Both the position numbers and the translations under genes were made by a program. A DNA stretch of 64,000 bases from Pseudolabrys taiwanensis (GTDB lineage: Bacteria; Pseudomonadota; Alphaproteobacteria; Rhizobiales; Xanthobacteraceae): NCBI RefSeq assembly GCF_003367395.1, contig NZ_CP031417.1, forward strand, positions 1,922,001 to 1,986,000. Reading direction: 5' to 3'. Every line of letters starts with the position of its first letter. Within the stretch, counting starts at the first letter, position 1. Under the pieces are notes generated by a model. The model made no database searches. It had not been told where the DNA came from and saw only the letters and a program-made list of their open reading frames with translations. Shown in pieces: positions 17,872 to 33,912 of the stretch.

Positions 17872-18297
17872 CTAACGGCGAACGGGCGAGGTATAGGTCG
17901 GCAGCGGCGGCCGGAAGGGTATGACCGACCTGCCGAAGTTGCTTCCATACTGCTGCTGAACCGCGGGCATGTTCACAATGCCGATCTTGATGTCCGAGGA
18001 CTTGGCATCGACTGGCGGCAGATTGACGCTCGGATTGATCCGCTCGACCTGGCGTTGAAGCTGCTGGTTGAGGCACTTGAAACCGCGGGTATTGCCGGTC
18101 TGGACTTCTACGCAGCCTGCCGAGGGCCGATTGTCGCGCTTCTCGCCGCCGATCACGATCTCCGGCAGAACCAACGGCGGCGGCGCCGGCGCGGCCAACG
18201 GCGGGGCGGGTAACGGCGCTGCCGCAGGCGCTTGCTGCGCGCGGCCCGACAGTGGCGAAGCCGCGACGATAAGAGCGATGACGATCGATTTGCGCAT
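17872..18297 (-). CDS. Small secreted protein of unknown function
   Basis: 141 aa from the ATG at 18297. A signal peptide (hydrophobic core about residues 4-16, cleavage after GRA/QA) is followed by an Ala/Pro-rich linker (AAPLPAPPLAAPAPPP), then a small domain with two Cys (SAGCVEV and FKCLNQQLQ) that probably form a disulfide. Periplasmic or surface location is inferred. It is the last gene of the envelope cluster, 41 bp after the protease gene. I do not recognise the family. Confidence 0.7.
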   Translation of the reverse strand: MRKSIVIALIVAASPLSGRAQQAPAAAPLPAPPLAAPAPPPLVLPEIVIGGEKRDNRPSAGCVEVQTGNTRGFKCLNQQLQRQVERINPSVNLPPVDAKSSDIKIGIVNMPAVQQQYGSNFGRSVIPFRPPLPTYTSPVRR

Positions 18298-18338
18298 TGA
18301 ATCACCCGGTCTCTTTGTCACGGTCTCACATGGGGCCG

Positions 18339-19106
18339 TCAGTTCTGCAGACAACGAATGCGCGCCGATATGGACGCCGCGCGATGGGCACGCGAGCCAT
18401 TGCCGGCGATTTGCGCCCGGTCGTCCTGATCAAAACGGACGTTATGGGCATACAGAAACGATTTCACGGCGTGCGCGCCGATTGCGACGACCCGGTTCGC
18501 CGCCGTTCGACGGCTGATGACACCCTGCACCAAGCCGCGACCGTCGAGCACCGGCGCGCCGCTGGCGCCGACGGTAACGTCCGATTCAATCGCCAGCGCA
18601 TCGACGCTGCTATCGGCTCTGACAACGGCATTGGCCATGAGGCCGCTGCCGATCAATTTGCCGGGCAACGTATCGAATGCGGACGCGAAGACCAGCTCGC
18701 TGGGCGACACGGCAACGGTGCGCGGAAACACGGCGTTCAGTCCAAGCGTGCGTGGCGCCTTCACCAGGGCGAGATCCGCTTCCGGCGATTGGGCGACGAC
18801 TTTCGCTTCGACGGCCCAGCCTTCCTTTGCGACAATGACGCGCGCGCAGCGCTCGACGGCGTGCCGCGCGGTGAGCAGATAGCCGCTGCCGTTGACGAAA
18901 AACGCCGTACTCGTCGTTTCGGAACGAACGGCGTTCTCCGGGATCCGCGCGAGGCGCTGCGCCGGTCTCAGCGGCTCCTGCATTGAAGGCAGAAGGCTCT
19001 GCGCAGAAACGAATGCGGGCGGGCTCGCCAAAAAAACGGCAAACAATGCGCCACCCCAAGCGGCGATCGCCGCCCTGCCCTTGTCCCTGATTTCCGCTTC
19101 GCTCAT
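18339..19106 (-). CDS. Trypsin-like serine protease, exported
   Basis: 255 aa from the ATG at 19106. An N-terminal hydrophobic segment (about residues 16-30, WGGALFAVFLASPP) serves as signal peptide or anchor. The chymotrypsin/DegP-like catalytic triad is visible: H82 in LTARHAVE, D111 in EADLALVK, S183 in GASGAPVLD. No PDZ domain follows. Periplasmic processing of envelope proteins made by the same cluster is the likely role. An earlier ATG at 19148 would put 14 residues before the signal and is less likely. Confidence 0.85.
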   Translation of the reverse strand: MSEAEIRDKGRAAIAAWGGALFAVFLASPPAFVSAQSLLPSMQEPLRPAQRLARIPENAVRSETTSTAFFVNGSGYLLTARHAVERCARVIVAKEGWAVEAKVVAQSPEADLALVKAPRTLGLNAVFPRTVAVSPSELVFASAFDTLPGKLIGSGLMANAVVRADSSVDALAIESDVTVGASGAPVLDGRGLVQGVISRRTAANRVVAIGAHAVKSFLYAHNVRFDQDDRAQIAGNGSRAHRAASISARIRCLQN

Positions 19107-19205
19107 GGCGCTTGGCACCGTACAGGCGCGGCCTCTTGCGCAAATCATGCGCTGTGTTTCGTCACGGCGCGCTTAAAGCGCACGGCAGAGTTCGCATCTC
19201 TCTTT

Positions 19206-19718
19206 CTAGCGCGGCGTGTCGTCTTTCGCTTTGACGTTCAGAGAGAACCGCAAATTCAACGGCTGCAGCATGTCCGGCGGCGGCGGTTCGCCGACATTGC
19301 CGCGCGTCAGGATCGTGCGCAGATCCTCTGTCGCATCGCGGTCCGAAAAGGCGGCGAAGGTCACCCGGTCCATGCTCCCGTCCGGACGCACCCAAGCCCT
19401 CACCGTCAACACGGGCGGCGGACCGTCCGACGTGCCGCTGTGCGCCTTCACATAAGTGCGAAAGCGTGCCGCCACCGGCTCGTCCGCGGCGATCCATTCC
19501 TCGAACCTGTACTTCACCAGCTTGGCGAACTGCACCCATGACGGTGGTGCGCTGGCCGGATCGCGATATTGCAGCGTCTGGCCGGTTGTTGCCGAAGTGC
19601 CGACGATGCTCATCAGGGCCATCGCCAGCCAGGCATAACCGCGCGCCAAGGGACCGCGTGCGCATCGCTGTTTGCGGCCACCAGCGGCGCCGTTGGTCTT
19701 TTGCGGCTTGTTCGTCAT
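19206..19718 (-). CDS. Membrane-anchored protein with TonB C-terminal-like domain
   Basis: 170 aa from the ATG at 19718, overlapping the transglycosylase stop as ATGA. A hydrophobic segment (GYAWLAMALMSIVGTSA, about residues 28-44) is followed by a domain with TonB-C features: KYRFEEWIAADEPV, then VLTVRAWVRPDGSMDRVTFAAFSD and a C-terminal LRFSLN strand, arranged as helix-strand-strand-helix-strand. It lacks the Pro-rich spacer of true TonB. It is one of four TonB-C-like domains in this cluster. Role as an alternative energy transducer or periplasmic adaptor is inferred. Confidence 0.75.
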   Translation of the reverse strand: MTNKPQKTNGAAGGRKQRCARGPLARGYAWLAMALMSIVGTSATTGQTLQYRDPASAPPSWVQFAKLVKYRFEEWIAADEPVAARFRTYVKAHSGTSDGPPPVLTVRAWVRPDGSMDRVTFAAFSDRDATEDLRTILTRGNVGEPPPPDMLQPLNLRFSLNVKAKDDTPR

Positions 19719-20506
19719 CGCATCGGCACCTTGAGAACTGTGACGCGGAAGCTGATTTCGCTGAGCTTGCTGTTGAGCGCGGCGAGATCGGGCCCACGCC
19801 CCGCACCGCCGAGGCACCGCCCGCGGCAGCGGCCGCCGCCGCCGGATGCGACGGAACGGCCGAAGGTCGCCGTTGGTACGATGCCCGCGACTTTGAACCC
19901 GCGCGAGGTCAACCGCGCCCGCACGCGTTGGCAATAATCGACCGACAGATACGAAAACCGCGTCTCGCCATGCCCGGCGCGGTACTTCATGGCGGCCGTG
20001 CACAGATCGCCGCTCGCCAGGCGCCACGCCTGCGCCAAATACATGACGCCGAAGCGGATGTTCGTCTCCGGCACGGCAAGATCGCGCGTCGTACCGACAA
20101 AGCCGAGCATCCGCGCCGTCGACGGCAGAATCTGCATGACGCCGATCTCGCCGTCGCCACCGACCGCGGCCGGATTGAACGAACTTTCGGTATGCGCGAT
20201 CGCTTCGGCAACCTCCGGGGGCATGCCCGCCCGCGCCGCGTCACGCTCGACCATTGTCGCGATATCGGCGCGCCCGACGATCGGACCGGCGCCGACCCCG
20301 CCGACCGGCGGCGGCACCGGCAATGGCAGCGATGCATTCACCCGGGGCGGCATATCTGCGCGCACCGGTGAGACATCGGCGCTCGCCATCTGCGCGCGCG
20401 CGCCGAGCGGCGCCGCGCAGACAAATCCCAGCGCAGCAAGACCAAGCGCGAACACGCCGAGCGTGCCAAGGCACGCCCGACGGAACGCATTTGCAGTCGC
20501 CGACAT
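19715..20506 (-). CDS. Lytic transglycosylase (SLT/MltC-like domain)
   Basis: 263 aa. Signal peptide (hydrophobic core about residues 14-31, cleavage after ARA). A Pro/Val-rich linker leads to an SLT domain with catalytic E107 in AHTESSFNP and the GEIGVMQILPSTA motif; LAVPETNIRFGVMYL and YRAGHG further down belong to the same domain. It cuts peptidoglycan glycan strands, which would allow assembly of a machine spanning the cell wall. Starts 3 bp after the YbjN gene. The last 40 residues include a Gly/Arg-rich stretch and are not part of the domain. Confidence 0.9.
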   Translation of the reverse strand: MSATANAFRRACLGTLGVFALGLAALGFVCAAPLGARAQMASADVSPVRADMPPRVNASLPLPVPPPVGGVGAGPIVGRADIATMVERDAARAGMPPEVAEAIAHTESSFNPAAVGGDGEIGVMQILPSTARMLGFVGTTRDLAVPETNIRFGVMYLAQAWRLASGDLCTAAMKYRAGHGETRFSYLSVDYCQRVRARLTSRGFKVAGIVPTATFGRSVASGGGGRCRGRCLGGAGRGPDLAALNSKLSEISFRVTVLKVPMR

Positions 20507-20509
20507 TCG

Positions 20510-21076
20510 TCAGGCCGCGGCGCCCGCGGGCACCGGCGCTTCCGCGGACGGCGTCGTGTTCTCGGCCGATGCCGGGGCCGCAACGGCGTCAATCTTCGGC
20601 GCAACCTTGCTGAGCTCTTCGCGCAGCCACGGCACGAACTGCTGCAGCAGGCTGTCCCAAATTTCGACCTGGACGCGCATCTGCTGCGCCGAAACGCCGC
20701 CAGCGAAGGAGCTGTCCATGGACAGCACCAGGAAATCCTGACCGGGGATCGTCTGATCGAGGAACAGACGGCCGAAGCGGCGCGTGCAGTTCCAGCGGTT
20801 GATCAGATCGAGCGGCAGCGTGCCCTGCACGGCGAGCAAGGCGACGAACGCGACGTCCGCGAAGCGGTCGGTGGTGCCCGGAATGGCGCTGCCCGGACGA
20901 ATGTCGAAGGCGAAGCGGTTGCTGGCCGAGCGCAGAAAGCGGGCGCGGCCCTCGCCGACGGTTTCCACGCGATAACCGGCGTCCTGCAGCAGATCGCGCA
21001 GCGACTCGACGGTCATGCTCGCGAGCGTCGCGGCGGCGGCATTGGTGCCGCCCGTGGTCATTTCATTGTTCGACAT
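20510..21076 (-). CDS. YbjN domain-containing protein
   Basis: 188 aa from the ATG at 21076 (GGAAGAG upstream). No signal peptide. The YbjN fold, related to type III secretion chaperones, is recognisable in VESLRDLLQDAGYRVE, FAFDIRP, LPLDLINRWNCTRRFGRLFLDQ and the C-terminal helix region before an Ala/Pro-rich tail. Such proteins are thought to be chaperone- or regulator-like; here, in the middle of the envelope cluster, a cytoplasmic chaperone for one of the exported components is plausible, though only by inference. Confidence 0.85.
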   Translation of the reverse strand: MSNNEMTTGGTNAAAATLASMTVESLRDLLQDAGYRVETVGEGRARFLRSASNRFAFDIRPGSAIPGTTDRFADVAFVALLAVQGTLPLDLINRWNCTRRFGRLFLDQTIPGQDFLVLSMDSSFAGGVSAQQMRVQVEIWDSLLQQFVPWLREELSKVAPKIDAVAAPASAENTTPSAEAPVPAGAAA

Positions 21077-21120
21077 AACTCTTCCTTCCATGAGACGATG
21101 GCGATCCCGCAATGCGAGAG

Positions 21121-22221
21121 TTAGCGCGTGGCGGCGGCTTGCCCGTTGGTCGCGCTGAACACCTTCGACAAGCCGAGTTCGTTGACGACGGGCGGATTAC
21201 GCTCGAGCAACTGCGCGAGATAGGCGCGTTGAAGCGCTTCCGCGCGCTGCGCCCGCAGCCTCTGCACAAGCGGTTCGCGAACCTCCGACAGAGGGCGCGT
21301 TTCCGCGGCTTTGGTCTCGAGCAGCTTGATGAAATGCCAACCGTCGCTCATCTTGATCGGGGCGCTGACATTGCCGCTGGCAAGACCGACGACCTCGGCC
21401 TTGATCTCCGGCCGGATCTGATCCTCTTGCAGCCAGCCAATCTCGCCGCCCTGCTCGGCCGATTGCTTCTCGTCCGAGTACTCCTTGGCGAGCGCCACGA
21501 AATCCGGCTTGGCCGCCTTCAGCTTGGCCTGCACTTCAGCCAGCTTCTTCTGCGCGGCCGCTTCGGCGTTCTTGTCCGCCTCGGCCGGCAGCGCCACGAA
21601 GATCTGCGACAGGCGATAGCGGCGCGGTACGACAAAAGCCGTCTTGTTCGCGTCGTAGGCCTTCTGAATCTCGGCGTCGTCCGGATAGCTCTCCGGCGGC
21701 TGCGAAACCGAACGCAGATAGGTCTCAACCACCGCCTGCTCGCGAACGCGCTCGAGCTGGGCCTCGACCGCCGGGTTCTTGTCCCACTTCTTCGCAACGG
21801 CTTCCTTCAGCACGAGCTGATTGGCGAGCATCATCCGCAGCGTCCGGCTGAGCAGTGCCGGGTCCTGGGCGAGCACCGCCTGATCGCGCGGCGGCAACGC
21901 GGCCACGAATTGACGCACTTCGCCGACGGTCACATCGCGATCGCCGACCCGCGCCACGACATCGGCGGCGCCATGATCCTTTCCTGCGACGGAGGGGCCT
22001 GGCGCGGCCTTTGTCTGTGACGCGGGCGCGGCTGCCGACGGCGCATTGGGGACATGCGGCGCGGCATTCGACCTCGCTCTCTGGGATTGCTGAGCCGGCG
22101 GCTGCGTCTGGGCAAAGCTCACCGTGGACACGAGCGCCAAAGCGAGAGCGCACACCGCAACGCCGGAAAACCGAGACCGTGCCGTGTGTCGCGTCGCCTT
22201 GGCCTGCATCAAGATACTCAT
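21121..22221 (-). CDS. Periplasmic parvulin-type peptidyl-prolyl isomerase (PpiC/SurA-like)
   Basis: 366 aa. Signal peptide (hydrophobic core about residues 20-36, cleavage after SFA). After a Gln/Ala-rich linker, a SurA-N-like helical chaperone region (VAALPPRDQAVLAQDPALLSRTLRMMLANQ...) precedes a rotamase domain: RYRLSQIFVAL, DFVALAKEYSDEKQSAEQGGEIGWL and GNVSAPIKMSDGWHFIKLLE are standard parvulin blocks. Probably folds the porin or the TpsB-like barrel encoded in the cluster. The ATG at 22221 overlaps the stop of the coiled-coil gene as ATGA. Confidence 0.92.
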   Translation of the reverse strand: MSILMQAKATRHTARSRFSGVAVCALALALVSTVSFAQTQPPAQQSQRARSNAAPHVPNAPSAAAPASQTKAAPGPSVAGKDHGAADVVARVGDRDVTVGEVRQFVAALPPRDQAVLAQDPALLSRTLRMMLANQLVLKEAVAKKWDKNPAVEAQLERVREQAVVETYLRSVSQPPESYPDDAEIQKAYDANKTAFVVPRRYRLSQIFVALPAEADKNAEAAAQKKLAEVQAKLKAAKPDFVALAKEYSDEKQSAEQGGEIGWLQEDQIRPEIKAEVVGLASGNVSAPIKMSDGWHFIKLLETKAAETRPLSEVREPLVQRLRAQRAEALQRAYLAQLLERNPPVVNELGLSKVFSATNGQAAATR

Positions 22222-22817
22222 GGATCAACCCTCTGATTGAGAACCTTGTCGCCATAGTCCTGCAACAGGTTCTGGACCTTCACCCGCTGAAAGCCGATCA
22301 GCGGTTCCTTTGCGACGACCGAGTCGACGATCGTCAGATTGTCGTAGCGCTCGAGCAGGTCGCGCCCGACTTTGACGAGTTCCTTGTTCTTGACCGTGCA
22401 GGCATTCAGGCCCGCTTTGTAGGTCTTCGACTCGGTCTCGAATTTCGCCCGTTCGCTATCCTTGGTGCGCGCGACAGTGGCGGCCTCGGTATAAGCTTCT
22501 TTCCACTTCTCCAGCGTCTGGTTGCGCTCCTCGAGCCGATCGTTGAACTCGCGGACGGCCTGCCGATAATCCGCTTCGACCTTTTTGACTTGCGCCTTTG
22601 CCGCGTCGACTTCGTTCTTGAGCGCATCCCGCGCGCGCGTGACCTCGGCGAGCTGCGCCTGAACGGCCGTTCGCTGATCCTCCAGCGCGCGCACCTGGGC
22701 GGTGGCGCTCCGCAACGCGTCGCGCAAACGGTCCGTCTCGGATTGGGCCTGCGCCTTCACGGCTGGCAAAGCCACGACAGCCATGAAAGCCAGGATGATG
22801 ACACTGCGATGACGCAT
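22218..22817 (-). CDS. Periplasmic coiled-coil protein
   Basis: 199 aa from the ATG at 22817. Signal peptide (hydrophobic core about residues 5-18, cleavage after KAQA). Residues 25-135 are a long coiled coil rich in Glu, Lys, Arg and Ala (for example LRSATAQVRALEDQRTA). The C-terminal 60 residues contain a single Cys (NACTVKN) and a conserved-looking LLERYDNLTIVDSVVAKEPLIGFQRV stretch. I do not know the family name, but such proteins are often found next to porins of the same type. It sits 2 bp after the porin gene and probably interacts with it or with peptidoglycan. Confidence 0.8.
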   Translation of the reverse strand: MRHRSVIILAFMAVVALPAVKAQAQSETDRLRDALRSATAQVRALEDQRTAVQAQLAEVTRARDALKNEVDAAKAQVKKVEADYRQAVREFNDRLEERNQTLEKWKEAYTEAATVARTKDSERAKFETESKTYKAGLNACTVKNKELVKVGRDLLERYDNLTIVDSVVAKEPLIGFQRVKVQNLLQDYGDKVLNQRVDP

Positions 22818-22819
22818 GA

Positions 22820-24667
22820 TCAGAACTTCGCGTTGAGGTCGAGTTGGAACACGTCGACGGCATAAGGTGCACCGGCGATGGCGTTCGCGCTCATCCAGCG
22901 GGCGGACGCCCAGACATTCTTGGCGAGGCCGTAATTGCCGCCGACGAAGTAGCCCTTGAGGTTGGTGCCGCCGAGACCGAAGTCGCTGTCGACGAAGGCG
23001 TCGATCATCGCATCGGACTCCAGGTACTTGTACCCGACATGGGCGTTCCAATCGCCGAAGCCGGCGATCTTGGTGTTGCCGACGGTCAGGCGCGCCATCC
23101 AGCCCGAATTGCCGCCTTCGAATGCGCCGGGCGTGCTGGTGGAGATATCCGGACCGCGGTTGTTAACCGCCACGCCGTTGATCGCGTCTTTGTTGAAGGC
23201 GGTGTTCCACACGTATTCGCCATCAATCCGGATGTTGATCGGGTCGAACTGCGCAAGATCAAGACGCGCGGACAGCGTAACGGGACGGAACGCGCTGGCC
23301 AGACCGAAGTACTGCGGTTGGGCGTAGACGCCGCCACCCCAACCGGCCGGCGGAACGATATCGCGCAGCGGCATGTAGGTGTTACCCTTCTGCGCGAACG
23401 ACGGGCGATAGTGATCGGTGTCGCACGCAGTCTGGGTAGAGATGTCACACGGGCTGGAAAGCTGCCCTTGAACATTCGAGAAGTCGTAATACGCGGCACC
23501 GAAGGTCAAGCCCACATCCGGCGCGATATTCCAGTTGAAGCCGAGCTGACCGCCGAACAGATACTTGTCGGCACTGTCAAACTTGACCGCCTGGGTCGAG
23601 GCGAAATCGAGGCTTGTGTTGAAGATCGGGAACGCGCCGCCGACCACAAAGGGCGTGAACCCCGGCAGCACTTCGTAGGCCGCCTGTCCCGCGATGCCGT
23701 CGAAGCCGAGATTGGTGTTCCAGACCAGATCGGTCGGCGACCAGAACGGATTGTCGAAGCGGCCGACATTGATCGCAACCGAGTTCGGGGCGCCGGAAAT
23801 GCCAGTCAGTTTGGTCAGACCGGGATTCTTGAATGGCTCGAATTTGACGAACGCGCGGTCGAGCCAGATGGCGTATTTCGAAAAGTTGCCGCCCGATCCG
23901 CCAAGAGTCTGGTTTCCCGACGTCGGCGCACTGTCCGAACCCGTACCGATGCGCAAACCGGCGGTGAAGCCCTCGTACAGATCCGCCTCCATGCCAAGCC
24001 GCGCTCGCAGCCGGAACCGGGTGCGGTCTTGCGTCGTGTTGTAGAGCGGCGGATCCGTCTGCGTCAGAGGCGACACGTCGTAAGGCGAGCCGGTGTTGAT
24101 CGCATTGAAATCCACGATCTGACCGAGCGAATTATAACCGCCGCCCGGATACCAGATGCCTTCGTAGCGGCCGCGGATGTCGCCGGAGAAGCGGATGCGC
24201 GAGGCCCACTCGGGATACATGCCCGGCGACGCCCAGTTTTCCGCCTTGGCCTGCGCCATCACTTCCTTGCGGATATCGTCGCGCAACTGGCGCTTGACGA
24301 CCTCCGGCACATAGGTGACGCGCTTGCTTCCGGGCGGCGATGCGGCGGCGGCCGCGGCGGTCGCGGCTTTGGCGGCTTCGTCGGCTTTGACGGTCGCGTC
24401 GCGCGAGGCTTCGCGCGCGATATAGGCCTCTTCTTCGGCCTGCTTGATCAGCGCCGCGCCCTGCTCTTCCGTGAGCGTGCCTTGCGCGATCAGAAGGTTG
24501 ACGAGATTGACCGTCGTGCTCGAGGCGACCGCCTTCTTCTTCGACACGGTCGGCCGTTCGGCCTGCTTGCCGCTCCCGTCCTGCGCCACGACCGGCGCCA
24601 CCGAAACCATCAAGAGCGAGGCCGCGACGAGCGATGTTCCCAAGCGGCGCTTTTTCTTCTTCGACAT
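22820..24667 (-). CDS. Large putative outer-membrane porin (Porin_5-like)
   Basis: 615 aa from the ATG at 24667, preceded by TAAGGAA. Lys-rich N-terminus and signal peptide ending VAPVVAQ. Then a conserved periplasmic region (NLLIAQGTLTEEQGAALIKQ) followed by an Ala-rich coiled-coil (about residues 75-115), and RQLRDDIRKEVMAQAK. From about residue 150 on the sequence is an alternating beta-barrel (RIRFSGDIRGRYEG, RTRFRLRARLGMEADLYEGFTAGLRIGTG, and so on) ending in F, the usual C-terminal outer-membrane signature. The N-terminal helical part may tether the barrel to peptidoglycan or form trimers. Diffusion channel function is inferred from the family. Confidence 0.88.
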   Translation of the reverse strand: MSKKKKRRLGTSLVAASLLMVSVAPVVAQDGSGKQAERPTVSKKKAVASSTTVNLVNLLIAQGTLTEEQGAALIKQAEEEAYIAREASRDATVKADEAAKAATAAAAAASPPGSKRVTYVPEVVKRQLRDDIRKEVMAQAKAENWASPGMYPEWASRIRFSGDIRGRYEGIWYPGGGYNSLGQIVDFNAINTGSPYDVSPLTQTDPPLYNTTQDRTRFRLRARLGMEADLYEGFTAGLRIGTGSDSAPTSGNQTLGGSGGNFSKYAIWLDRAFVKFEPFKNPGLTKLTGISGAPNSVAINVGRFDNPFWSPTDLVWNTNLGFDGIAGQAAYEVLPGFTPFVVGGAFPIFNTSLDFASTQAVKFDSADKYLFGGQLGFNWNIAPDVGLTFGAAYYDFSNVQGQLSSPCDISTQTACDTDHYRPSFAQKGNTYMPLRDIVPPAGWGGGVYAQPQYFGLASAFRPVTLSARLDLAQFDPINIRIDGEYVWNTAFNKDAINGVAVNNRGPDISTSTPGAFEGGNSGWMARLTVGNTKIAGFGDWNAHVGYKYLESDAMIDAFVDSDFGLGGTNLKGYFVGGNYGLAKNVWASARWMSANAIAGAPYAVDVFQLDLNAKF

Positions 24668-24758
24668 AGATTCCTTAGCCTCGTTCTTCACTGTTACCGT
24701 TCGGGACAGCGGACTGCCCGCGTTGTTGTTCGACCTCACAGTCACCCCCGCATTTGTC

Positions 24759-26074: not shown

Positions 26075-26081
26075 GGCGCGC

Positions 26082-26486
26082 TCACTTCACCAACGGCTTG
26101 GTCGCGAGACCGACTTGGGTGATGTTCAGGCGGCCGAGCAGATCGAGCACGTCCATGACGTTCTGATACTGCGTCTGCGCATCGCCGCGCAGAACCACCG
26201 GAAACTCCGGCGTAAGCGCCTTCTGTTGGACCAGCCGCTGCTCCAGCTCGGTGAGCGACACCGGAATGGTGTCGAGGAAGATCTTGCCGTCGTTGCCGAC
26301 GGTGATCGCCTTGGTGGTCTGCTGCGCCAGAGACGGCGCAGCGGAGGCTTTCGGCAGGTTGACCTTCATCCCCTGCACCGTCGCCGTGGTCATCACGATG
26401 AAGATGATCAACAGCACGTATGCGAGGTCGAGCATCGGCGTGACGTTGATATCGTCGTACGGCTTGTTGTCGGCTTGGATCTGCAT
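26082..26486 (-). CDS. exbD: ExbD biopolymer transport protein
   Basis: 134 aa. N-terminal cytoplasmic DDINVTPMLDLAYVLLIIFIV with the essential membrane Asp at position 20, a single transmembrane helix (about 19-35), then a periplasmic domain ending in VPVVLRGDAQTQYQNVMDVLDLL-type sequence in which D and strand pattern match the family. Forms the proton channel with the ExbB-like fusion encoded 6 bp upstream. Confidence 0.94.
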   Translation of the reverse strand: MQIQADNKPYDDINVTPMLDLAYVLLIIFIVMTTATVQGMKVNLPKASAAPSLAQQTTKAITVGNDGKIFLDTIPVSLTELEQRLVQQKALTPEFPVVLRGDAQTQYQNVMDVLDLLGRLNITQVGLATKPLVK

Positions 26487-26492
26487 GGCCGC

Positions 26493-28562
26493 TTACTCCG
26501 CCGCCATGCGGTGATGCTCGAGCGGGCGCGGCCGTTCGACGCTGTAGACCTCGGCCATCTTCGTCGTGAACTCGTCGACGAAGACCTGCATGTCGCTGGT
26601 GATGTCTTTGATGCGCAGGGTCAGCCAGTTGTAGCCAAACAGCGCCGGGATCGCGACCGCGAGACCGGCGACGGTCGCCATCAACGCGCCGGCGATGCCG
26701 GGAGCGATCGCGTTGATGTTGACGTCGCCCGACATCGCGATGGCGGCGAACGTCACCATGACGCCGACGACGGTGCCGAGCAGGCCGAGGAACGGACCGC
26801 CGGAGATCGAGATGGTCAGGATCACCATCAGGCGGTTGAGGCCCTGCATCTCCCGCACGAGGCCGGCATCCAAGGCGGCGCGGATCGCGGCGATGCTTTC
26901 CGCGCTGAGCACGTGGCCGGCGGCCTTGGCGTCGCTCGGGAAGCGGCGGGCGATTTCGTCGGCGCCGATCAGATAGATGCGGTAGAGCGAGGAGTGGCGG
27001 CGAATGTCCTGCTTGGCCTTGCCGTTCTTCTCGGTCTTCTCGGCGGCAATCACCGCGCTCTCAGTGGCGAGTTCGGTGAGATCGTCCTCGAGCGCGCGGA
27101 AGGCGGGCGTGAAGAGTTCGTTGCCGCGCTTCTGGCGCTTGAGAAAGCCATGCTTCTCGACCATCACCACCCAGCTCGCCAGAGCCATGATGATGAGGAT
27201 GGCGATGACGATCCAACCGTCGAGCGTGACAGCCTTGAGCAGGACGCCGAAGTAGCCCGACAGCCAGCTCGACGTTTCCTCGTCGACGCTGAAGTTGAGG
27301 AGCTTGGACGGCGTCGGTCCCTGATTGATCGCGGCGACCTTGATGAAGCCGGCCGGACGCGCCGACTTCGCGATCGACATCTCGTCGAGTTCGCCTACAA
27401 AGCCCGGCATCGCCGCGGCAACCGGCGCTGCGGCCGGAGCGGCCGCCGCGGCATCGACGGCAGGCGCGGCAGCGCCGTCCGCGGGCGCGGCCGGAGCAGC
27501 GGCACCGTCCTGCGGCGCGGCCGTGCTCTGGTCAGCGGGTGTCGCAGCGGGAACAGCTGCCGGCGCTGCCGGGGCCGCCGCGACGCGGTCGCCGCCGATG
27601 AGCGCCGGCGTGTTCAGCGCCGGCAGCGTGGCATTGAGCGTCGCGTAAGCATTGCCGTCGAGATAGACGGTGACGAGACCCGGCGTCGCCACGACGGCGA
27701 GATGGTGCCAGCCGCCCGGCGCGACCGGCGCCGAAGCGGTCGTGCGCTGCGGCGTGCCGTTCACGCTGATCTCGACGAAAGGCGCGCCGTCGTCGAGGCC
27801 AATGACGAGGCCGTTGCCACGATCGCGACGGCTATAGATGACGGCGTTGCGCTGCAGCGCCGCCGCCTTGAACCAGGTCGTCCAGGTCCAGGCGCTGTTG
27901 TCGGCAATCGCCAGCGACGGCGAGGCCGGCAGCGTCACCGGCTGCTGGCCATCGAGGCGCAGACCCGTGCCGATGATCGCGGCATCCGCGGTTTGACCCG
28001 CGCTCTGCGCATTATTGGCCCACGCCGAGGAGTCGAGCGCGGGCACGCCGCGCTGCGCGAAGTGATAGACCAGCAGCGTGTCGGCGTCGTACGTGCCCTT
28101 CGCGTCGGCGCCGGCCGTCGCTTTGGCATTGCCGTAATAGAGCCAGATGTTGGTCTTGCCGCCCGACTGAACGCTCGGCACGTTCACCCAGATCAGCGCC
28201 TCGCCGAGCAGCGAGTCGTACTTCTCGACGTGGAACTTGAGCGGCGTCTTATCGTCGCCGGCGACGAAACGCAGATCGCTACCGTCGTCCTTGGCCGCGG
28301 CGAAGCGGAAGTTGCCGACATGCAGGCGCACCAGCAGCGGCGCCGACCCGATCGCTTCGGTGATATTCGCACCGGTCGCGCTCGTGTCGACGCTGATCTC
28401 CTTGCGCATCGACCAGTCGTTGTTCCACCAGGCCTGCGCGGCGCCGGTCAAAGCCGTCATCGACAGCAGCGAGGCGAATGCGAGCCGGCTCGCGCGTCGA
28501 GCCGCCGCGGCAACTGTCTTCATCGTAGAAGTGCGAAACATGGAAGGCCACCTTTGGGACAT
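26493..28562 (-). CDS. ExbB/TolQ/MotA proton channel fused to secreted DUF2341 and LamG lectin-like domains
   Basis: 689 aa, about three times the size of ordinary ExbB. A signal peptide (about residues 20-45) is followed by a DUF2341 domain starting WWNNDWSMRKEISVD and containing ALIWVNVPSVQSGGKTNIWLYYGNA, then a LamG/concanavalin-like domain (about 175-330: GTGLRLDGQQPVTLP, WTWTTWFKAA, GWHHLAVVATPGLVTVYLDG). A long Ala/Pro linker (330-395) and FVGELDEMSIAK lead to the ExbB part (about 430-689) with transmembrane helices near WIVIAILIIMALASWVVMVEK, GPFLGLLGTVVGVMVTF and GIAGALMATVAGLAVAIPALFGYN. So a periplasmic sugar-binding-type module sits on an ion-channel subunit. The ATG overlaps the TpsB stop (TGATG), with GGAGA upstream. 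Confidence 0.9.
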   Translation of the reverse strand: MSQRWPSMFRTSTMKTVAAAARRASRLAFASLLSMTALTGAAQAWWNNDWSMRKEISVDTSATGANITEAIGSAPLLVRLHVGNFRFAAAKDDGSDLRFVAGDDKTPLKFHVEKYDSLLGEALIWVNVPSVQSGGKTNIWLYYGNAKATAGADAKGTYDADTLLVYHFAQRGVPALDSSAWANNAQSAGQTADAAIIGTGLRLDGQQPVTLPASPSLAIADNSAWTWTTWFKAAALQRNAVIYSRRDRGNGLVIGLDDGAPFVEISVNGTPQRTTASAPVAPGGWHHLAVVATPGLVTVYLDGNAYATLNATLPALNTPALIGGDRVAAAPAAPAAVPAATPADQSTAAPQDGAAAPAAPADGAAAPAVDAAAAAPAAAPVAAAMPGFVGELDEMSIAKSARPAGFIKVAAINQGPTPSKLLNFSVDEETSSWLSGYFGVLLKAVTLDGWIVIAILIIMALASWVVMVEKHGFLKRQKRGNELFTPAFRALEDDLTELATESAVIAAEKTEKNGKAKQDIRRHSSLYRIYLIGADEIARRFPSDAKAAGHVLSAESIAAIRAALDAGLVREMQGLNRLMVILTISISGGPFLGLLGTVVGVMVTFAAIAMSGDVNINAIAPGIAGALMATVAGLAVAIPALFGYNWLTLRIKDITSDMQVFVDEFTTKMAEVYSVERPRPLEHHRMAAE

Positions 28563-30361
28563 CAGAATTCTCCGATCGCGCTGAAGAGGACGCGTTTGTC
28601 ACGTGCTTGCGTCTCGCCTTGCGACATCATGGGGACTGCCAGAGCGACCATGCCGCTCACGCTGCTGAACAGCTTGAAGCGCGTGCCGACGCCCACGCTC
28701 CACAAATCGAAGCGCGCTTGCTGCTCGGGAAGCGGCTGCTGAATGCGGACGGTGCCGGCGTCCACGAAGGCGAAGGCCCGCCACTCGTTGATGACGGTGA
28801 AGCGCGCGCTGCCCTGCCCGGTCTCGTCCTTCATCTGAGACTGCAGCCAGGTGCCGACGTCGGGGCTGCGCAACTCGATCGAGCCGGCGACGCCGTCGTC
28901 GCCGAGCGTCTCGGATTCGAGATAGCCGCGCACCGTGTCGAGACCGCCGAGGCTGAACTGCTCGCTGGAGAGCAGCGGACCGTTGGCGAGCTGTCCCTTC
29001 ACGCGGCCGAAGAGCTGTATGCCTTCCGGCAGATCGATAGTCTGGGACAGGTCCGCGTTGAAGTGAACGAAGTTGCTGTCGGCGTAAGCGCGCTTGTTCC
29101 AGTAATCGATGAAATCGCTGCCCGGGCCGCGCAGGTTCGCGGTCACGCCCAGATTAAACTGGGTCAGGAAGCTCTCCTGCTGCCACGTGCCGCCGTAGCT
29201 CGCCGTGAACGGGTAATAAGTGATCGGTGTCGAGAAGGCGTCGCTACCGAGCGCGACGGTCTGCCCGAAATGCTTGTAGTCGGCGCCGAACGAGAACGAG
29301 TGGAAGTAGTTCTCGCGCATCGGCAAGGTGAGGACGAGGCGCGCGCCGACCGTCTCGCCGGGGCCGACGACGTTCATGCCGCCGATGGTCGCGACATCGC
29401 TCTTGGAGTCGACGCCGTAGACGAGAAGGCTGGTCCAGTCGGTGAGCCGGCCGAGGTAGGAGAACGACCAGACTTCCGCGTCGCTGCGGCGCTCGGGCGC
29501 CACCTGATAGCTGACGCTCAACGAATGGCCGAGCTGCCAGAAGTTGTCGTAACGCGCCGTGGCGCTCACGCGCGTCCGCGTCGTGTTGGGCGACTGCCGG
29601 TTGTTGTACTCGACGCTGGCGTGCAGCGGCGGCTTGTCTTCGACGTTCAGGTCGACGTCCACGGTGCCGGGCGCGGCGCCCGCGCGCAGCGCCGGCGTCA
29701 CGCGGCGATCGGGCCACTGGTTGAGCGCGACGATGTCCTTCGTGACGTCGTTGAAGTTGGGCAGCGTGCCCTCCTTCAGCGACGGCGCATTCTTCTTGAT
29801 CTTGCTGACGTCGAAGAAGCGCGAGTTGACGACGCGCAGCCGGCCGACCTTGCCTTCGACGACTTTCAGAACAACGACGCGATTGGCGACGTTCTGAGCC
29901 GGAACGCCGACGCTGACGGTCTGATAGCCGCGGTCGTGATACGACTTTTCCAGCGCGGCACGCGCCTTCTCGACGTCTTCCGGCGTACGGTTCGGGCCGA
30001 GAAACGGATAGACCGCTTCTTCGACATCTATTTGCGCGAGATTGTCGGCGCCATCGACACGAAACTCGTCGATATCGAAACGTTGCGCGGGCGCGGCGGC
30101 CGCCGGTTGTCCCGGCGCGGCCGGCGCCGCTTGCGAAGCGCCTGCGGAGTCGGCCTGGGCCGGCTGCGCGGCGGCCGGATTGGCGAATGCCGCAGCGAGG
30201 CCGCCAACGGCAAGCCCGAGCGCGAAGAGACGATGCTTTTTAGGTTGAGAAAAAGCGCCTTCACCGCGAAGTACGAAATCCCGTCGCGTCACTACGTCCC
30301 CCGAGCCCGAATAACCGCAAGCTCTCGAAGGCGGCAGCGCGGCCGCTTTCGAGAACCTCAT
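28562..30361 (-). CDS. TpsB/ShlB/FhaC-like outer-membrane transporter with POTRA domains
   Basis: 599 aa from the ATG at 30361; a GTG at 30292 with GGGGGA upstream would remove 23 residues and put the signal peptide (LFALGLAVGGLAAAFANPAAAQ) nearer the N-terminus, and is probably better. After a Pro/Ala linker come two POTRA-type domains (QRFDIDEFRVDGADNL, SYHDRGYQTVSVGVPAQN, VVVLKVVEGKVGRLRVVNSRFFD), then a 16-strand barrel with the VRGY box (LDTVRGYLESETLGDDG) typical of two-partner-secretion transporters and a terminal F. Normally it secretes one large TpsA protein; none is encoded in the window. Coupled to the ExbB fusion by a one-base overlap. Confidence 0.9.
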   Translation of the reverse strand: MRFSKAAALPPSRACGYSGSGDVVTRRDFVLRGEGAFSQPKKHRLFALGLAVGGLAAAFANPAAAQPAQADSAGASQAAPAAPGQPAAAAPAQRFDIDEFRVDGADNLAQIDVEEAVYPFLGPNRTPEDVEKARAALEKSYHDRGYQTVSVGVPAQNVANRVVVLKVVEGKVGRLRVVNSRFFDVSKIKKNAPSLKEGTLPNFNDVTKDIVALNQWPDRRVTPALRAGAAPGTVDVDLNVEDKPPLHASVEYNNRQSPNTTRTRVSATARYDNFWQLGHSLSVSYQVAPERRSDAEVWSFSYLGRLTDWTSLLVYGVDSKSDVATIGGMNVVGPGETVGARLVLTLPMRENYFHSFSFGADYKHFGQTVALGSDAFSTPITYYPFTASYGGTWQQESFLTQFNLGVTANLRGPGSDFIDYWNKRAYADSNFVHFNADLSQTIDLPEGIQLFGRVKGQLANGPLLSSEQFSLGGLDTVRGYLESETLGDDGVAGSIELRSPDVGTWLQSQMKDETGQGSARFTVINEWRAFAFVDAGTVRIQQPLPEQQARFDLWSVGVGTRFKLFSSVSGMVALAVPMMSQGETQARDKRVLFSAIGEF

Positions 30362-30448
30362 GTCTTAAAGACACGCGGTCGACGGCTATTCCGTCAGGCG
30401 CGGGGAAAACTTTTTTTACGATTATGAATTGAACGATTAACGGCGCGA

Positions 30449-31444
30449 TCAGCCGAGCAGCACGACGCCGCCGGGAAGCGTGCGCACGCTGGCGCCGAAC
30501 AGCTCGCGGACCTGAATCGGAAAGTTATCAAGGCGTTCGAGATGAAACGTGCCGCTCATCAAACGCCGGCCGAGGGTCGCATCGGTGATGATGATGCGAC
30601 CGGGCCGATAGCGATTCACTTCTTCAACCACCGTGGCGAGCGGGCGATCCTGCACGATGAGAAGGCCGTGCTGCCAAGCGGTGGCGGTGTTGGCATCGAC
30701 GGGCGACGCCAGACCGAGACCGGTAGCGCGCGAGAAATCGACCCGTTTGCCGGAATCAAGCTGAACCAGGCCCTGCTGATACTCCACGTCGACGCGGCCG
30801 TCGGTGCAGGTCACCGACAGGCGGCCGTCGATGCAACGCATATCGAAAGACGCCCGGGTCGCGACGACGCGTGCGCCAAGCGATTGCACGATCAACGGGT
30901 TTTCACTCGCACGACGCCGCACCGTGATCGCCGCCTGACCGCCGACGAGTTCGATCCGCGGATCGTCGGCGCGCGACGACAATACGGAAACGCTGGTCAG
31001 CGTGTTCAACGTTGCCGTCACGCCGCCGACGAGCGCGATATCCTGCCTTTCGCCTTTACGCGTGCGGTAGTCGGCCGAAAGCTCCCGGAGCGAAGGCCAC
31101 AGATCCATCGGTGGGTCATAGACAAGATAAGCGGAGACAGATGCGGCCACCGCGCCGCCGACGAACATTCGGCGGGACATGCTCCAGCGCGCGGGATTGA
31201 GCGCACCAATACGCGACGACCGTTGTTGCTCGAGATGGTCGGCGGCCTGCTTCAGGTCACGCCACAACAGCGCTGCCTGTCGAAAAGCTTCCTCGTGCTC
31301 GGAACTCTGCTTGCGCCAGGCTTGCAAAGCCTGCAAATCATCCTGCGTCGCTTCGCCCGAGCGCAGCCGGACGACCCAGGCGATCGCAGCCCGCATCAGC
31401 GGATCCTCGGAGGATTCGTCGTGCCCGTTCACAAATGCGCTCAC
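30449..31444 (-). CDS. FecR-family anti-sigma regulator
   Basis: 331 aa from the GTG at 31444. N-terminal cytoplasmic anti-sigma region (DUF4880-like: MRAAIAWVVRLRSGEATQDDLQALQAWRKQSSEHEEAF in pieces), a transmembrane segment (MFVGGAVAASVSAYLVY, about residues 75-92), then the periplasmic FecR domain (GVTATLNTLTSVSVLSS, IELVGGQAAITV, GARVVATRASFDMR, DGRVDVEYQQG), ending with an STN-like VNRYRPGRIIITDATLG region. It transmits an outer-membrane signal to the adjacent ECF sigma factor. No FecA-like receptor is present, so the input may come from the STN protein at 33160 or the TpsB barrel. Confidence 0.9.
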   Translation of the reverse strand: MSAFVNGHDESSEDPLMRAAIAWVVRLRSGEATQDDLQALQAWRKQSSEHEEAFRQAALLWRDLKQAADHLEQQRSSRIGALNPARWSMSRRMFVGGAVAASVSAYLVYDPPMDLWPSLRELSADYRTRKGERQDIALVGGVTATLNTLTSVSVLSSRADDPRIELVGGQAAITVRRRASENPLIVQSLGARVVATRASFDMRCIDGRLSVTCTDGRVDVEYQQGLVQLDSGKRVDFSRATGLGLASPVDANTATAWQHGLLIVQDRPLATVVEEVNRYRPGRIIITDATLGRRLMSGTFHLERLDNFPIQVRELFGASVRTLPGGVVLLG

Positions 31445-31711
31445 TGACCGCTCAGAATGAAGCGGGATTGACCGGCAAGCGACTGCGCTCGAAATACGGG
31501 GCAAAGCCCCCGGAATGTGCAATCCATTCGACCTCCCCCCTCGCATAGGTCGCGGCAAGCGGGCTTCTTAATGCAATAGACACCTGATGACGAGGTATTC
31601 CGAATCGATTGCGGAATAAATTATCCCGAACAGCGATGCAAAGGAACGCAAACCCTCAGCAACCATCGCTGCGGCGACCGCGACAGCAACAATGCTAATG
31701 GCTTGCGGTAC

Positions 31712-32272
31712 TCAGGCGCGCCGGCGCGGCCCGCTTGCACGGCGCATCACATCGCGGCCGAGGCGATGCGCGCAATGCTCGACGGCTTGTTGCACGGTGC
31801 GCTCCACCGTGCGCAGCGAGACGCCGAGTTCGTCGGCGATCTGCGCATAGGGCCTGTTGTTGACCAGGGCCGCCTCGAAAATCTGCCGCGAACGCGTCGG
31901 CAGCTCGGCCAGCACCTGCACCAGGGCTTCGACTTCGGATTGGGCTTCGACGGCCTGCGCCGGACTGGGCGACTCGTCGGCGACGTCCAGGATGGCGTCG
32001 ATCTCCGCCGCCGACGCGCGATAGCGCTCGGCCCGCCGCCGGTTCTTGCCGACATTGAGGGCGGTGCGAAACAGATAGTCCTTGGGGCTTTGCACGACCG
32101 TGGTGTTCGGCACGCGCTCGAGATGCGCGAACGTGTCGTGCAGAACCTCGCTGGCGAAGTCCGCGCACCCGAATTTGCGGGCGAGACGCCGCACCAAGCC
32201 GTCGTAGTCGGCAGTGAGCACGGCCTGCAAGATACTGCGGTTCGACACACTCACTGAAACTACCCCACTCAC
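31712..32272 (-). CDS. ECF RNA polymerase sigma factor (FecI-like)
   Basis: 186 aa from the GTG at 32272; further GTG codons at 32254 and 32248 are possible starts. Region 2 is seen in LVRRLARKFGCADFASEVLHDTFAHLE and PKDYLFRTALNVGKNRRR, region 4 in LPTRSRQIFEAALVNNRPYAQIADELGVSLRTVERTVQQAVEHC. Directly precedes the FecR gene (267 bp gap 31445-31711, no gene in it). It probably drives transcription of the envelope cluster from an extracytoplasmic signal. Confidence 0.9.
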   Translation of the reverse strand: MSGVVSVSVSNRSILQAVLTADYDGLVRRLARKFGCADFASEVLHDTFAHLERVPNTTVVQSPKDYLFRTALNVGKNRRRAERYRASAAEIDAILDVADESPSPAQAVEAQSEVEALVQVLAELPTRSRQIFEAALVNNRPYAQIADELGVSLRTVERTVQQAVEHCAHRLGRDVMRRASGPRRRA

Positions 32273-32415
32273 ATCTGCGCGACGGAAATTGTCCGCGCAG
32301 GTGCCCTTAGCCTTGCGTAGCGATCACAAATGACAGCGAGATGACATTGGTATGCGCGCTGAAATCCACGGAAATCTTCCTCGCTATACAGAAACTTAAC
32401 GCGCGGATCGCGCGG

Positions 32416-33150
32416 TCACCGCCCGTCGAAGGACACAGGAAGGAGAACCGTGAGCGTATCGGGAAGATCGGGCGGGATCGTCGGCAGCGGTTGCGCGCGC
32501 AGGACGGTCTCCGTCGCCGCCTGATCCAGTAGCCAATCGCCCGAGCTTGTCCTCACCCAGGTCTCGATGACGGTACCGTCGCGGCGCATGGCGAACATCA
32601 CCTGCACCACGCCGCTCATCTGGCCGGAACGCACGCCTGACGGATAGCGGCGGTAGCGCGAGATATGACTGACAAGCACCCGTTGAAAGGCCGTCGCCTC
32701 GCCGTTCGGAATGGCCGCGCGCGGCGTCGCCGCCGACGGCGGTTGCGACACGTTCGGCATCGAGGGACGCTCGGCGGGCGCCGGCGTGACCGGGGCAGTC
32801 TCCTCGGGAATGGCCCGATCCGGCGCGTCCAGCAACGGGTCGGTTTGCAGGCTGCTGAGCTCTTGTGTCGGACGCAGCGCCACGACGGGTGTGGGTGCCG
32901 GCGGCGCTTCCTGCAACAGGCGCACCTCGACGGTCGGCCCGTTGGAGCGGCTCGCCGTCCCTTCGGGCTGCTGGTGAAGCCAATAGACTCCCGCTCCGAC
33001 CAGAACCGGAACGCTGACGACGATGCCGATCAGCCACCGGCCATCGAACGAGGGAATTGCGACCGTGTGCCGGCTCAGCACCCGCACCGCCTGAGCTTCG
33101 ACGCTCGCCGGCAGCGGATCGTTTCGGCCTTCGTTCTTTTCACTCGGCAC
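32416..33150 (-). CDS. TonB-family protein (second energy transducer)
   Basis: 244 aa. Cytoplasmic N-terminus, transmembrane segment about residues 38-58 (WLIGIVVSVPVLVGAGVYWL), a Pro/Thr-rich spacer (about 60-155), then a TonB-C domain: ISRYRRYPSGVRSGQMSGVVQVMFAMRRDGTVIETWV and the final VLLPVSF strand. The YP motif after the helix is a classical TonB signature. Its spacer is shorter and less proline-pure than that of the TonB at 24759. Starts 9 bp after the STN protein gene. Confidence 0.9.
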   Translation of the reverse strand: MPSEKNEGRNDPLPASVEAQAVRVLSRHTVAIPSFDGRWLIGIVVSVPVLVGAGVYWLHQQPEGTASRSNGPTVEVRLLQEAPPAPTPVVALRPTQELSSLQTDPLLDAPDRAIPEETAPVTPAPAERPSMPNVSQPPSAATPRAAIPNGEATAFQRVLVSHISRYRRYPSGVRSGQMSGVVQVMFAMRRDGTVIETWVRTSSGDWLLDQAATETVLRAQPLPTIPPDLPDTLTVLLPVSFDGR

Positions 33151-33159
33151 GACGCGAAC

Positions 33160-33912
33160 TCAAAGCGACCTGACAACAATCATGACACGGACCGGCTGCG
33201 GCGTGTGCGCCGGTGCCGGTTGCCGAATGACCACACCTTGGAGCGCTTCCGCAACCGCCAAATCGCGTTCGCGGTCGCCTGTCGACCGGAAGACCTGCGT
33301 TTTTTGAATCGTACGCGACGGATCGACCCAAAGCTCGAGACCGACGCGATAACTGCCGGACGAGGCTTTGCCGCGCTTGCGCAAAGCCTGTTGCACATCC
33401 TGCTGGATGACACCGATATAGCTGGCGAGCGCATTGGGATCCGGCTCGTTCTGCGGCCGCGAGACGTGCAATGTGTCGAGCGCGATATCGGCGGTCGCCC
33501 GCTGCAGCTCCGGAGGCTCGTCGCGCTGTGCCTCCGCCGGGTTCAAGAGAATAACGGAATCCGCGCGGGCATAGCGCACGATCAACTCATTCGCACCCAA
33601 AAGACCGTGCAGCGCATCCTCACGCGTGTAATCACCTTTTATCGGCGAAGAGCGGCGTCCGACGCTGGAGCCGCTTTTGTAAATGACGTGCACGCCGCTC
33701 TGTTCGCTGTAAAGCTCGAGCGCCGTAGCGAGCGATTGCGCGGGAATATCGAAGGCGATGGCCGCGCTTTGGCGTTCACTTTTCTCCTGCGCCATCGTCG
33801 CGGAGATAAGAACGCTTGCGCACATCAGACCAACGCAGAACAGGGCCGAGAGACGCCCTCCCCCGCTGGATCGCCGGGACATCGCGATGCCGGGCGCTGT
33901 CACAGTCCTCAT
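33160..33912 (-). CDS. Exported STN-domain protein with TonB-C-like end
   Basis: 250 aa from the ATG at 33912 (M32 of the open frame; MSRRSS ten residues later is also possible). Signal peptide SALFCVGLMCASVLISATMA. Then an STN domain: IAFDIPAQSLATALELYSEQSGVHVIYKSGSSVGRRSSPIKGDYTREDALHGLL in pieces and LIVRYARADSVILLNP, the signalling plug normally found at the N-terminus of FecA-type receptors or secretins. The C-terminal half (RKRGKASSGSYRVGLELWVDPSRTIQKTQVFRSTGD) resembles TonB-C. So a receptor-type signalling domain is separated from any barrel. It heads the envelope cluster. Confidence 0.82.
   Translation of the reverse strand: MRTVTAPGIAMSRRSSGGGRLSALFCVGLMCASVLISATMAQEKSERQSAAIAFDIPAQSLATALELYSEQSGVHVIYKSGSSVGRRSSPIKGDYTREDALHGLLGANELIVRYARADSVILLNPAEAQRDEPPELQRATADIALDTLHVSRPQNEPDPNALASYIGVIQQDVQQALRKRGKASSGSYRVGLELWVDPSRTIQKTQVFRSTGDRERDLAVAEALQGVVIRQPAPAHTPQPVRVMIVVRSL

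Follow-up and report, generated by a model that had tools for sequence, protein, structure and literature searches.

A probable PUMA3/Pdt-type two-partner secretion cluster with a candidate TonB/ExbBD motor in Pseudolabrys taiwanensis, and a distant DUF3739 exoprotein as its likely cargo

Classical two-partner secretion (TPS) systems, which pair a TpsA exoprotein with a TpsB transporter, are described as functioning with no external source of energy (PMC5422565, PMC9355242). A review lists as a basic question how the outward movement of TpsA, be it by pulling or by pushing, comes about (PMC5422565). The closest described relative of the locus analyzed here is the PUMA3/Pdt system of Pseudomonas aeruginosa. 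Its sigma factor VreI is encoded together with VreR and with VreA, a protein that comprises an STN domain and a TolA/TonB-like C-terminal domain and has no barrel, and the VreI regulon includes pdtA (TpsA), phdA, pdtB (TpsB), exbB2, exbD2, tonB4, PA0696 (a putative porin), PA0697, PA0698 (YbjN), PA0699 (PpiC) and the Hxc type II secretion system (PMC2729926, PMC4971064, PMC7035377). PdtA contributes to virulence in nematodes (PMC5422565), and Rhodopseudomonas palustris was reported to carry four PUMA3 copies, of which three precede a tpsA gene and the fourth precedes tpsB together with homologues of exbBD and PA0696 (PMC2729926). Here we describe a related cluster of 17 genes in a window of 64,000 nucleotides of the Pseudolabrys taiwanensis genome (positions 1922001-1986000 of C1, its only contig, 5.59 Mb long); coordinates without a contig or locus label follow the numbering of this window.

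Inspection of open reading frames (ORFs) and translations places all 17 genes on the minus strand, from 33912 down to 17872, with several overlaps. In the order of transcription they encode a VreA-like protein with STN and TonB_2 domains, a TonB, an extracytoplasmic function (ECF) sigma factor, a FecR, a TpsB, an ExbB fused to DUF2341 and LamG domains, an ExbD, a hypothetical protein and a second TonB, followed by a Porin_5 porin, a coiled-coil protein, a PPIC-type prolyl isomerase, a YbjN protein, a lytic transglycosylase, a small TonB-C-like protein, a Trypsin_2 protease and a small secreted protein. This inventory, given earlier in a sequence-only reading of the window, is borne out by the ORFs, by Pfam and by PDB matches of the STN domain. 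The same reading knew of no described system of such composition, a claim that must be given up, as the composition is already known from the PUMA3/sigma-VreI regulon of P. aeruginosa. The likeness is judged from other Pseudomonas loci, which keep the same gene order as the P. aeruginosa system, and from published descriptions, not from an alignment with PAO1 proteins. In our view the cluster probably supplies the transporter and the energiser of a PUMA3/Pdt-type TPS system, the cargo of which is a TpsA of 4,094 amino acids (aa) with a DUF3739 domain. New here are the co-occurrence of DUF3739 with the DUF2341-ExbB fusion, the counts of neighbouring genes, a group of TpsB proteins without a visible H1 helix and a conserved motif in the exoprotein tail.

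A genome-wide search with PF05860 identified two TpsA proteins. The 4,094-aa one (C1:320597-332881, or L016:4598-16882) has a TPS domain (E=1.8e-24) and a C-terminal DUF3739 domain; its gene lies 1.6 Mb from the cluster, so that this pair lacks the adjacency of tpsA and tpsB that is usual but not obligatory in TPS systems and that brings the two genes close together in Methylosinus and at other loci. It is preceded by its own vreA/ECF/fecR trio (L016:1984-4514), the products of which are 27% (VreA), 41% (ECF) and 40% (FecR) identical to those of the window, and no TpsB match was found at this locus. TpsB matches in the whole genome number two: one is the window protein (28562-30361; Pfam ShlB E=1.1e-17, POTRA_2 E=7e-15), which has the POTRA domain and ShlB barrel of a type Vb transporter, and the other (C1:452845-454515) directly follows the second TpsA, a 6,359-aa frame whose TPS match (29.4 bits) is below the Pfam cut-off. 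This second TPS system (L018:3746 to L019:4516; C1:433.7-454.5 kb) includes an ordinary TpsB with an H1-like N-terminus. Because the other TpsB adjoins the other TpsA, the likely partner of the window TpsB is the DUF3739 TpsA and vice versa, and we regard their identification as a TpsB-TpsA pair as very probable. The remark of the sequence-only reading that neither a TonB receptor nor a TpsA is present is thus right for the 17 genes, and does not extend to the genome, which holds ten TonB receptors in addition to the DUF3739 TpsA.

The proposal that the genes form a conserved envelope unit found support in other genomes. On plasmid pMSC49a of Methylosinus sp. C49 twelve cluster genes (for TonB, VreA, ECF, FecR, TpsB, ExbB, ExbD, TonB, porin, coiled coil, PPIC and YbjN; 39-84% identity) stand together, with one pair swapped, the first TonB gene preceding VreA there and following it in the window; the last gene of the run encodes a protein of 4,128 aa that has both a TPS and a DUF3739 domain as well as the tail PSIITVEVLGYGG. 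In G200, a genome of the same family, a search for 16 of the genes (all but the small TonB-C gene) recovered every one, and two trio-TpsA cassettes come directly after them. In G019 TpsB precedes TpsA. In G155 the unit (TpsB, ExbB, ExbD, Porin_5 and TpsA) occurs twice, as divergent copies on different contigs (L046 and L048), with the trio visible at one of them within the stretch covered. In G035, which encodes a relative of the ordinary TpsB, no adjacent TpsA was found in the locus.

To quantify the association, we sampled 299 Pseudomonadota genomes, drawn evenly. The general TPS domain matched in 105 of them, DUF3739 in nine and DUF2341 in eight; all eight DUF2341 genomes fall within the nine with DUF3739, and in all eight a DUF2341 is joined to ExbB. 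In the ninth (G284) the C-terminal half of an ExbB stands at a contig start (C52:7-864), with the DUF2341 part off the contig. The co-occurrence is significant by Fisher's test (p=6e-15, or 2e-17 with G284 counted), and kinship makes these values too small, but the nine genomes span six families. Gene order was studied in the best 80 of 339 loci from a profile scan of named genomes (71 Pseudomonadota, nine Verrucomicrobiota), of which 66 have at least 5.5 kb after ExbB and are usable for neighbour counts; flanks reach at most 10 kb, and TpsA or TpsB may fall beyond them. TonB was found in all 66, ExbD in 65, Porin_5 in 63, the coiled-coil protein in 60, and ExbD, TonB and porin together in 62. 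TpsB adjoins ExbB in 41 of the 44 loci showing both, and a TpsA piece was seen in 51 of the 80. These counts and the genome co-occurrence rule out chance neighbours. The sequence-only reading would have been refuted had the genes failed to recur side by side in other genomes, and they do recur.

The nine Verrucomicrobiota loci, one of them in a metagenome-assembled genome labelled Akkermansia muciniphila, show the unit or cut pieces of it. Eleven plasmid records gave a match, and two of these are Klebsiella plasmids with relatives of DUF2341-ExbB, so that the gene is sometimes plasmid-borne. In two loci of the Pseudomonas or Stenotrophomonas type (L049 and L054) GspE, and in L049 also GspF, is encoded upstream of TpsA, which recalls the Hxc-PdtA arrangement. 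Precomputed domains of a 928-aa protein (P0011) join a ShlB barrel with DUF2341-ExbB, which may be a natural fusion or an assembly error.

In a tree of TpsB sequences, a branch supported at 100/100 separates 50 proteins of the window type from 26 others (L168 and L176, not recognized, L175, a duplicate of L042, and L186, an odd ORF, were dropped). In the same tree, Verrucomicrobiota and Hyphomicrobiales TpsB cluster together (99/95), a hint of transfer between the phyla. The alignment of the genome's other TpsB with CdiB and FhaC starts at the first 13-23 residues of the latter two, a region which we take to comprise H1 and the linker of these proteins, and the window TpsB aligns with CdiB only from residue 40, just ahead of the first POTRA domain. 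The stretch from the signal-peptide core to the first POTRA strand has a median of 20.5 and a minimum of 10 residues (50 rows, two of them mis-measured); in the window TpsB the stretch before POTRA is longer than the group median, with 39 residues rich in Ala and Pro. In FhaC, H1 is followed by a 30-residue linker (PMC5422565). Since the median stretch is too short for H1 plus a linker of that length, the group appears to have no room for H1, and TpsB proteins of the window type are, as far as alignment can tell, without a visible H1 plug helix. H1 is predicted in most TpsB proteins and is dispensable (PMC5422565). No conserved TonB-box-like segment was seen by eye in the alignments ahead of the domains at the N-termini of TpsB and Porin_5; a candidate for this role lies instead in the C-terminal tail of the exoprotein.

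The putative motor consists of the ExbB with periplasmic DUF2341 and LamG domains (26493-28562; Pfam DUF2341, LamG and MotA_ExbB), ExbD (26082-26486; E=1.1e-30) and a TonB4-like, Pro-rich protein with a TonB_2 C-terminal domain (24759-25538, start picked by eye; E=2.1e-5). The genome has three ExbD/TolR genes: one belongs to a TolQ-TolR set accompanied by a TolA-like gene, one to a conventional ExbB-ExbD-TonB set at C1:5.517 Mb, which has ExbB and ExbD above the NCBIfam cut-offs and a TonB receptor about 3.5 kb away, and one to the window. The predicted window set is distinct from both others; the idea that it is the genome's conventional Ton set was rejected in view of the separate set near the receptor. 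The membrane Glu of the 'APGIAEAL' segment, which is presumably E176 of E. coli ExbB with its role in proton transfer, is retained by TolQ and the conventional ExbB of this genome; in DUF2341-ExbB this position is Ala, Gly or Ser in all 78 readable sequences of the 80 (Gly in the window). The Asp of ExbD is D in 63 of 78 loci, and 15 are off the pattern, of which the six displayed also have D. The relevant paper that mentions DUF2341 together with ExbB calls it a domain of unknown function, and a literature search for DUF3739, with most subscription papers outside it, found no mention.

In the exoproteins DUF3739 is followed by a variable linker, behind which a conserved segment resembling [S/T]VEVLGFG stands near the C-terminus. 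A strict form of the pattern is present in 31 of 44 tails and variants recognized by eye in the other 13 (the cut piece L054 left out). A matrix made from 17 instances among 29 tails, mostly beta- and gammaproteobacterial, gives 22.3 bits for the genome's DUF3739 TpsA (PSIIIVEVLGFGGD). In ten of eleven test tails the score is about 10 bits or higher and exceeds that of every other stretch of the available protein, and 18 of 19 control tails of ordinary TpsA are below 0 bits (20 were fetched, L146 and L154 proved too short, and the genome's second TpsA is the nineteenth; the control frames are longest open runs, some of which may be wrong). As background, unlabelled ORFs with 785,302 residues in all yield 16 matches of at least 10 bits. 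The TonB, porin, TpsB, ExbB and ExbD proteins of the loci do not reach 10 bits; on re-scoring with a slightly different rule for unknown letters, one ECF ORF (10.2) and one ORF with a TPS domain (12.3) pass this value. An AlphaFold2 model of the last 400 residues of a Rhodoblastus TpsA (29-row alignment; mean pLDDT, i.e. predicted local distance difference test, of 70) shows a confident beta-rich domain and an unstructured stretch, with pLDDT below 50 at residues 300-350, which include the motif (336-342). The model suggests that the tail motif is a free linear motif and would fit a docking site, low confidence being no proof of disorder.

A second tail motif, QVLGxGxL...LTxxER, was considered as a VreA ligand and is kept as an idea, being too loose. 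By eye it is present in G000, both sampled G200 TpsA, G284a, G130 and G255 (genomes with VreA matches), degenerate in G284b and G094, and absent from G155 and Methylosinus (which have a VreA-like gene) as well as from G268 and G019 (no VreA match).

The cluster has a pho-box-like direct repeat, ATGTCAT-N4-CTGTCAT (32330-32347, minus strand), about 57 bp upstream of the ECF ORF. It differs by one mismatch from CTGTCATN4CTGTCAT, and no other site in the 1.545 Mb of the window plus 80 related loci comes within one mismatch of this pattern. With two mismatches allowed, the same sequences hold eight matches of the forward pattern and four of the reversed one; at up to three, the window has five versus 2.6 expected, with 13 of 100 shuffles as high and no clear enrichment. 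No pho box within three mismatches was found in front of the distant TpsA, and the sole such match of its locus, against a chance expectation of 0.74, falls within the ORF of the second vreA.

The system is best summarized as a putative phosphate-responsive, TonB/ExbBD-coupled TPS system, known here from sequence alone. Phosphate starvation, via the pho box, and the VreA-like/FecR/ECF switch would turn on both loci. TpsA would cross the outer membrane through the window TpsB, while its C-terminal DUF3739 domain and predicted disordered tail would remain periplasmic, where the DUF2341-ExbB/ExbD/TonB motor could act on the tail, or on an outer-membrane barrel, so that the exoprotein is held, advanced or released. 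Assistance may come from the prolyl isomerase, the coiled-coil protein and the porin, and the lytic transglycosylase and protease may make room or trim. That the motor acts on the TPS pair in some way seems to us slightly favoured. A direct contact between TonB and the exoprotein tail is a tentative proposal, which we doubt more than we believe. Equally speculative is a separate TPS subtype, driven or gated by the proton-motive force, in which TpsB lacks the plug helix, the disordered tail with its TonB-box-like VEVLGFG strand stays in the periplasm gripped by the TonB/ExbD/DUF2341-ExbB motor, which expels, holds or releases the fibre, and VreA, which has a TonB-like C-terminal domain, may sense this tail too and signal secretion to the sigma factor.

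Several observations weigh against this scheme. TonB dependence is deduced from sequence, and the pairing of the window TpsB with the distant TpsA is based on elimination and on synteny in other genomes. The test tail L085 (6.5 bits) is outscored by one window elsewhere in the same protein and the G155 tail is divergent. The nineteenth control, the genome's second TpsA with its ordinary TpsB, ends in VVPVEVLGDG (13.4 bits), and for this reason the motif may be unspecific to the TonB-linked type. In Verrucomicrobiota a TPS domain was found in four of nine loci and DUF3739 in none, the TpsA ends falling beyond the loci. A TonB receptor (STN, plug) lies within about 8 kb downstream in Stenotrophomonas (L042/L093, G094); it has its own ECF/FecR and is the sole receptor-like neighbour seen with a profile built from one sequence, which may miss others. 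In P. aeruginosa, VreA is dispensable for sigma-VreI activity (PMC7035377), and tpsA, tpsB, PA0695 (tonB) and PA0696 mutants overproducing VreI had wild-type virulence in zebrafish (PMC2729926).

These points leave room for other roles of the motor. It might energize the Porin_5 barrel for uptake, e.g. of a phosphate-bearing polymer caught by the exoprotein, with a TPS pair that needs no energy. Such a role would agree with the presence of Porin_5 within the unit in 63 of 66 loci, with phosphate control in P. aeruginosa and with the precedent of HxuA-HxuB-HxuC, in which a TPS protein works with a TonB-dependent transporter (PMC5422565), but the Porin_5 N-terminus shows, by eye, no conserved TonB-box-like segment and Pfam classifies the protein as Porin_5 rather than as a TonB receptor; we regard this explanation as rather unlikely. 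The window set could also be a Tol-like signalling or wall-positioning device that serves the VreA/FecR/ECF switch or the cell wall, outside secretion. Its proton channel is nearer to TolQ/TolR (133/93 bits) than to ExbB/ExbD (64/65 bits) by NCBIfam, all below cut-off, and the cluster includes an SLT gene and four TonB-like C-terminal domains, that of the VreA-like protein included. However, the SLT profile matches in just six of the 80 loci (three of them Hyphomicrobiales), besides G200, and no vreA, ECF or fecR match lies within the available flank in 65 of the 80, while G019 and G268 have no VreA match genome-wide; for the latter reasons the motor is not tied to the switch, and we consider a Tol-like device improbable. 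Finally, a conventional TonB system lying by chance beside a TPS system would suit the ten receptors of the genome and the receptor near one Stenotrophomonas locus, but chance is excluded by the co-occurrence and conserved gene order, and the conventional set at 5.517 Mb has a receptor of its own nearby, which makes this explanation very improbable.

Returning to the preferred PUMA3/Pdt-type assignment, the remaining genes complete its inventory. The VreA-like protein (33160-33912) has a signal peptide, an STN domain and a TonB_2 C-terminal domain (E=4.7e-5). Its STN was matched by PDB signalling domains of PupA, FpvA and FemA and, below cut-off, by the NCBIfam FecA model; Pfam gave no call for STN, nor any barrel or plug match in the 281-aa ORF, so that the STN-on-receptor-barrel arrangement of FecIRA signalling was not found. 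The next gene encodes a TonB-type protein (32416-33150; TonB_C E=3.5e-10) with 56% identity over 94 aa to the Methylosinus plasmid TonB. Pfam assigns TonB_C to this ORF and TonB_2 to ORFs 24759-25715 and 33160-34005. The VreI-like ECF sigma factor (31712-32272; Sigma70_r4_2 E=3.8e-14; paralogue at L016:2945-3538) and the VreR-like FecR-type anti-sigma factor (30449-31558; Pfam FecR, DUF4880) come next. The hypothetical protein behind ExbD (25535-26074; no Pfam match) has relatives, among the loci searched, in G200 (31 bits) and L060. The PA0696-like porin (22820-24670, start picked by eye; Porin_5 E=4.2e-212), which has an N-terminal segment, is followed by the secreted PA0697-like coiled-coil protein (22218-22817, start picked by eye; 56% identity to Methylosinus), the PA0699-like prolyl isomerase (21121-22221; E=4.2e-22), the PA0698-like YbjN protein (20510-21112; E=1.7e-11) and the SLT transglycosylase (19715-20506; E=9.1e-19).

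The two further TonB-C-like domains of the sequence-only reading differ in standing: one is the Pfam-supported TonB_2 of the STN protein, and the other, in the small secreted protein at 19206-19718, was read by eye from the translation and is seconded by matches of a local TonB profile to its short-ORF relatives in L067 (36 bits) and L076 (35 bits), Pfam giving no useful match for it or for the other small hypothetical proteins. The overlapping ORF 19162-19806 was rejected as a gene (GC content at third codon positions of 0.56; the frame 19206-19718 fits better). The Trypsin_2 protease (18339-19148; E=1.4e-14) is also present in G200, just before vreA, and the last small secreted protein (17872-18354; no Pfam match) has a homologue there (117 bits). 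Upstream of the VreA-like gene lie two perfect palindromes, ATGTCAGAATTCTGACAT (34312-34329) and TGTCATATGACA (34185-34196), which are possible regulator sites, and an STN-like match was obtained for a frame of 137 aa (C1:1913004-1913234) situated 9 kb to the left of the window.

The conserved unit, seen here in members of two phyla, would couple a class of giant exoproteins to a dedicated candidate proton motor, and the question of how TpsA moves outward would thereby become open to tests by single gene deletions in harmless environmental strains. The finding suggests a group of TPS systems that may use cell energy, thought to be unneeded in classical TPS, and it gives context and a candidate ligand to a TonB system called uncharacterized in P. 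aeruginosa (PMC7035377). A search of titles and abstract beginnings, with most subscription papers outside it, found no proposal of a TonB-coupled TPS class. FecA-FecR-FecI signalling shares STN, FecR and ECF with the cluster, but the VreA-like protein lacks a receptor barrel and its neighbours form a secretion system. Classical TPS systems (FhaB/FhaC, CdiA/CdiB) share the POTRA domains and ShlB barrel and the exoprotein with a TPS domain, whereas the dedicated ExbBD-TonB, DUF3739, the conserved tail and the absence of a visible H1 set the present system apart. Compared with PUMA3/Pdt, the tpsA gene lies 1.6 Mb away with its own trio, the 17 genes include no type II secretion system, a pho-box-like site precedes the ECF gene, and an extra TonB (32416-33150, outside the published Pseudomonas set), the small TonB-C protein, the lytic transglycosylase and the protease are added. 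The same split of tpsA and tpsB-exbBD is seen in the PUMA3 loci of Rhodopseudomonas palustris and Janthinobacterium, for which the accessible part of the published comparison concerns gene neighbourhood, without the TpsB clade, DUF3739 or the tail. Common to the cluster and PUMA3/Pdt are a VreA-type protein with STN and TonB domains, ECF and FecR, TpsA and TpsB, ExbBD, TonB, the porin, and the PA0697, YbjN and PpiC proteins.

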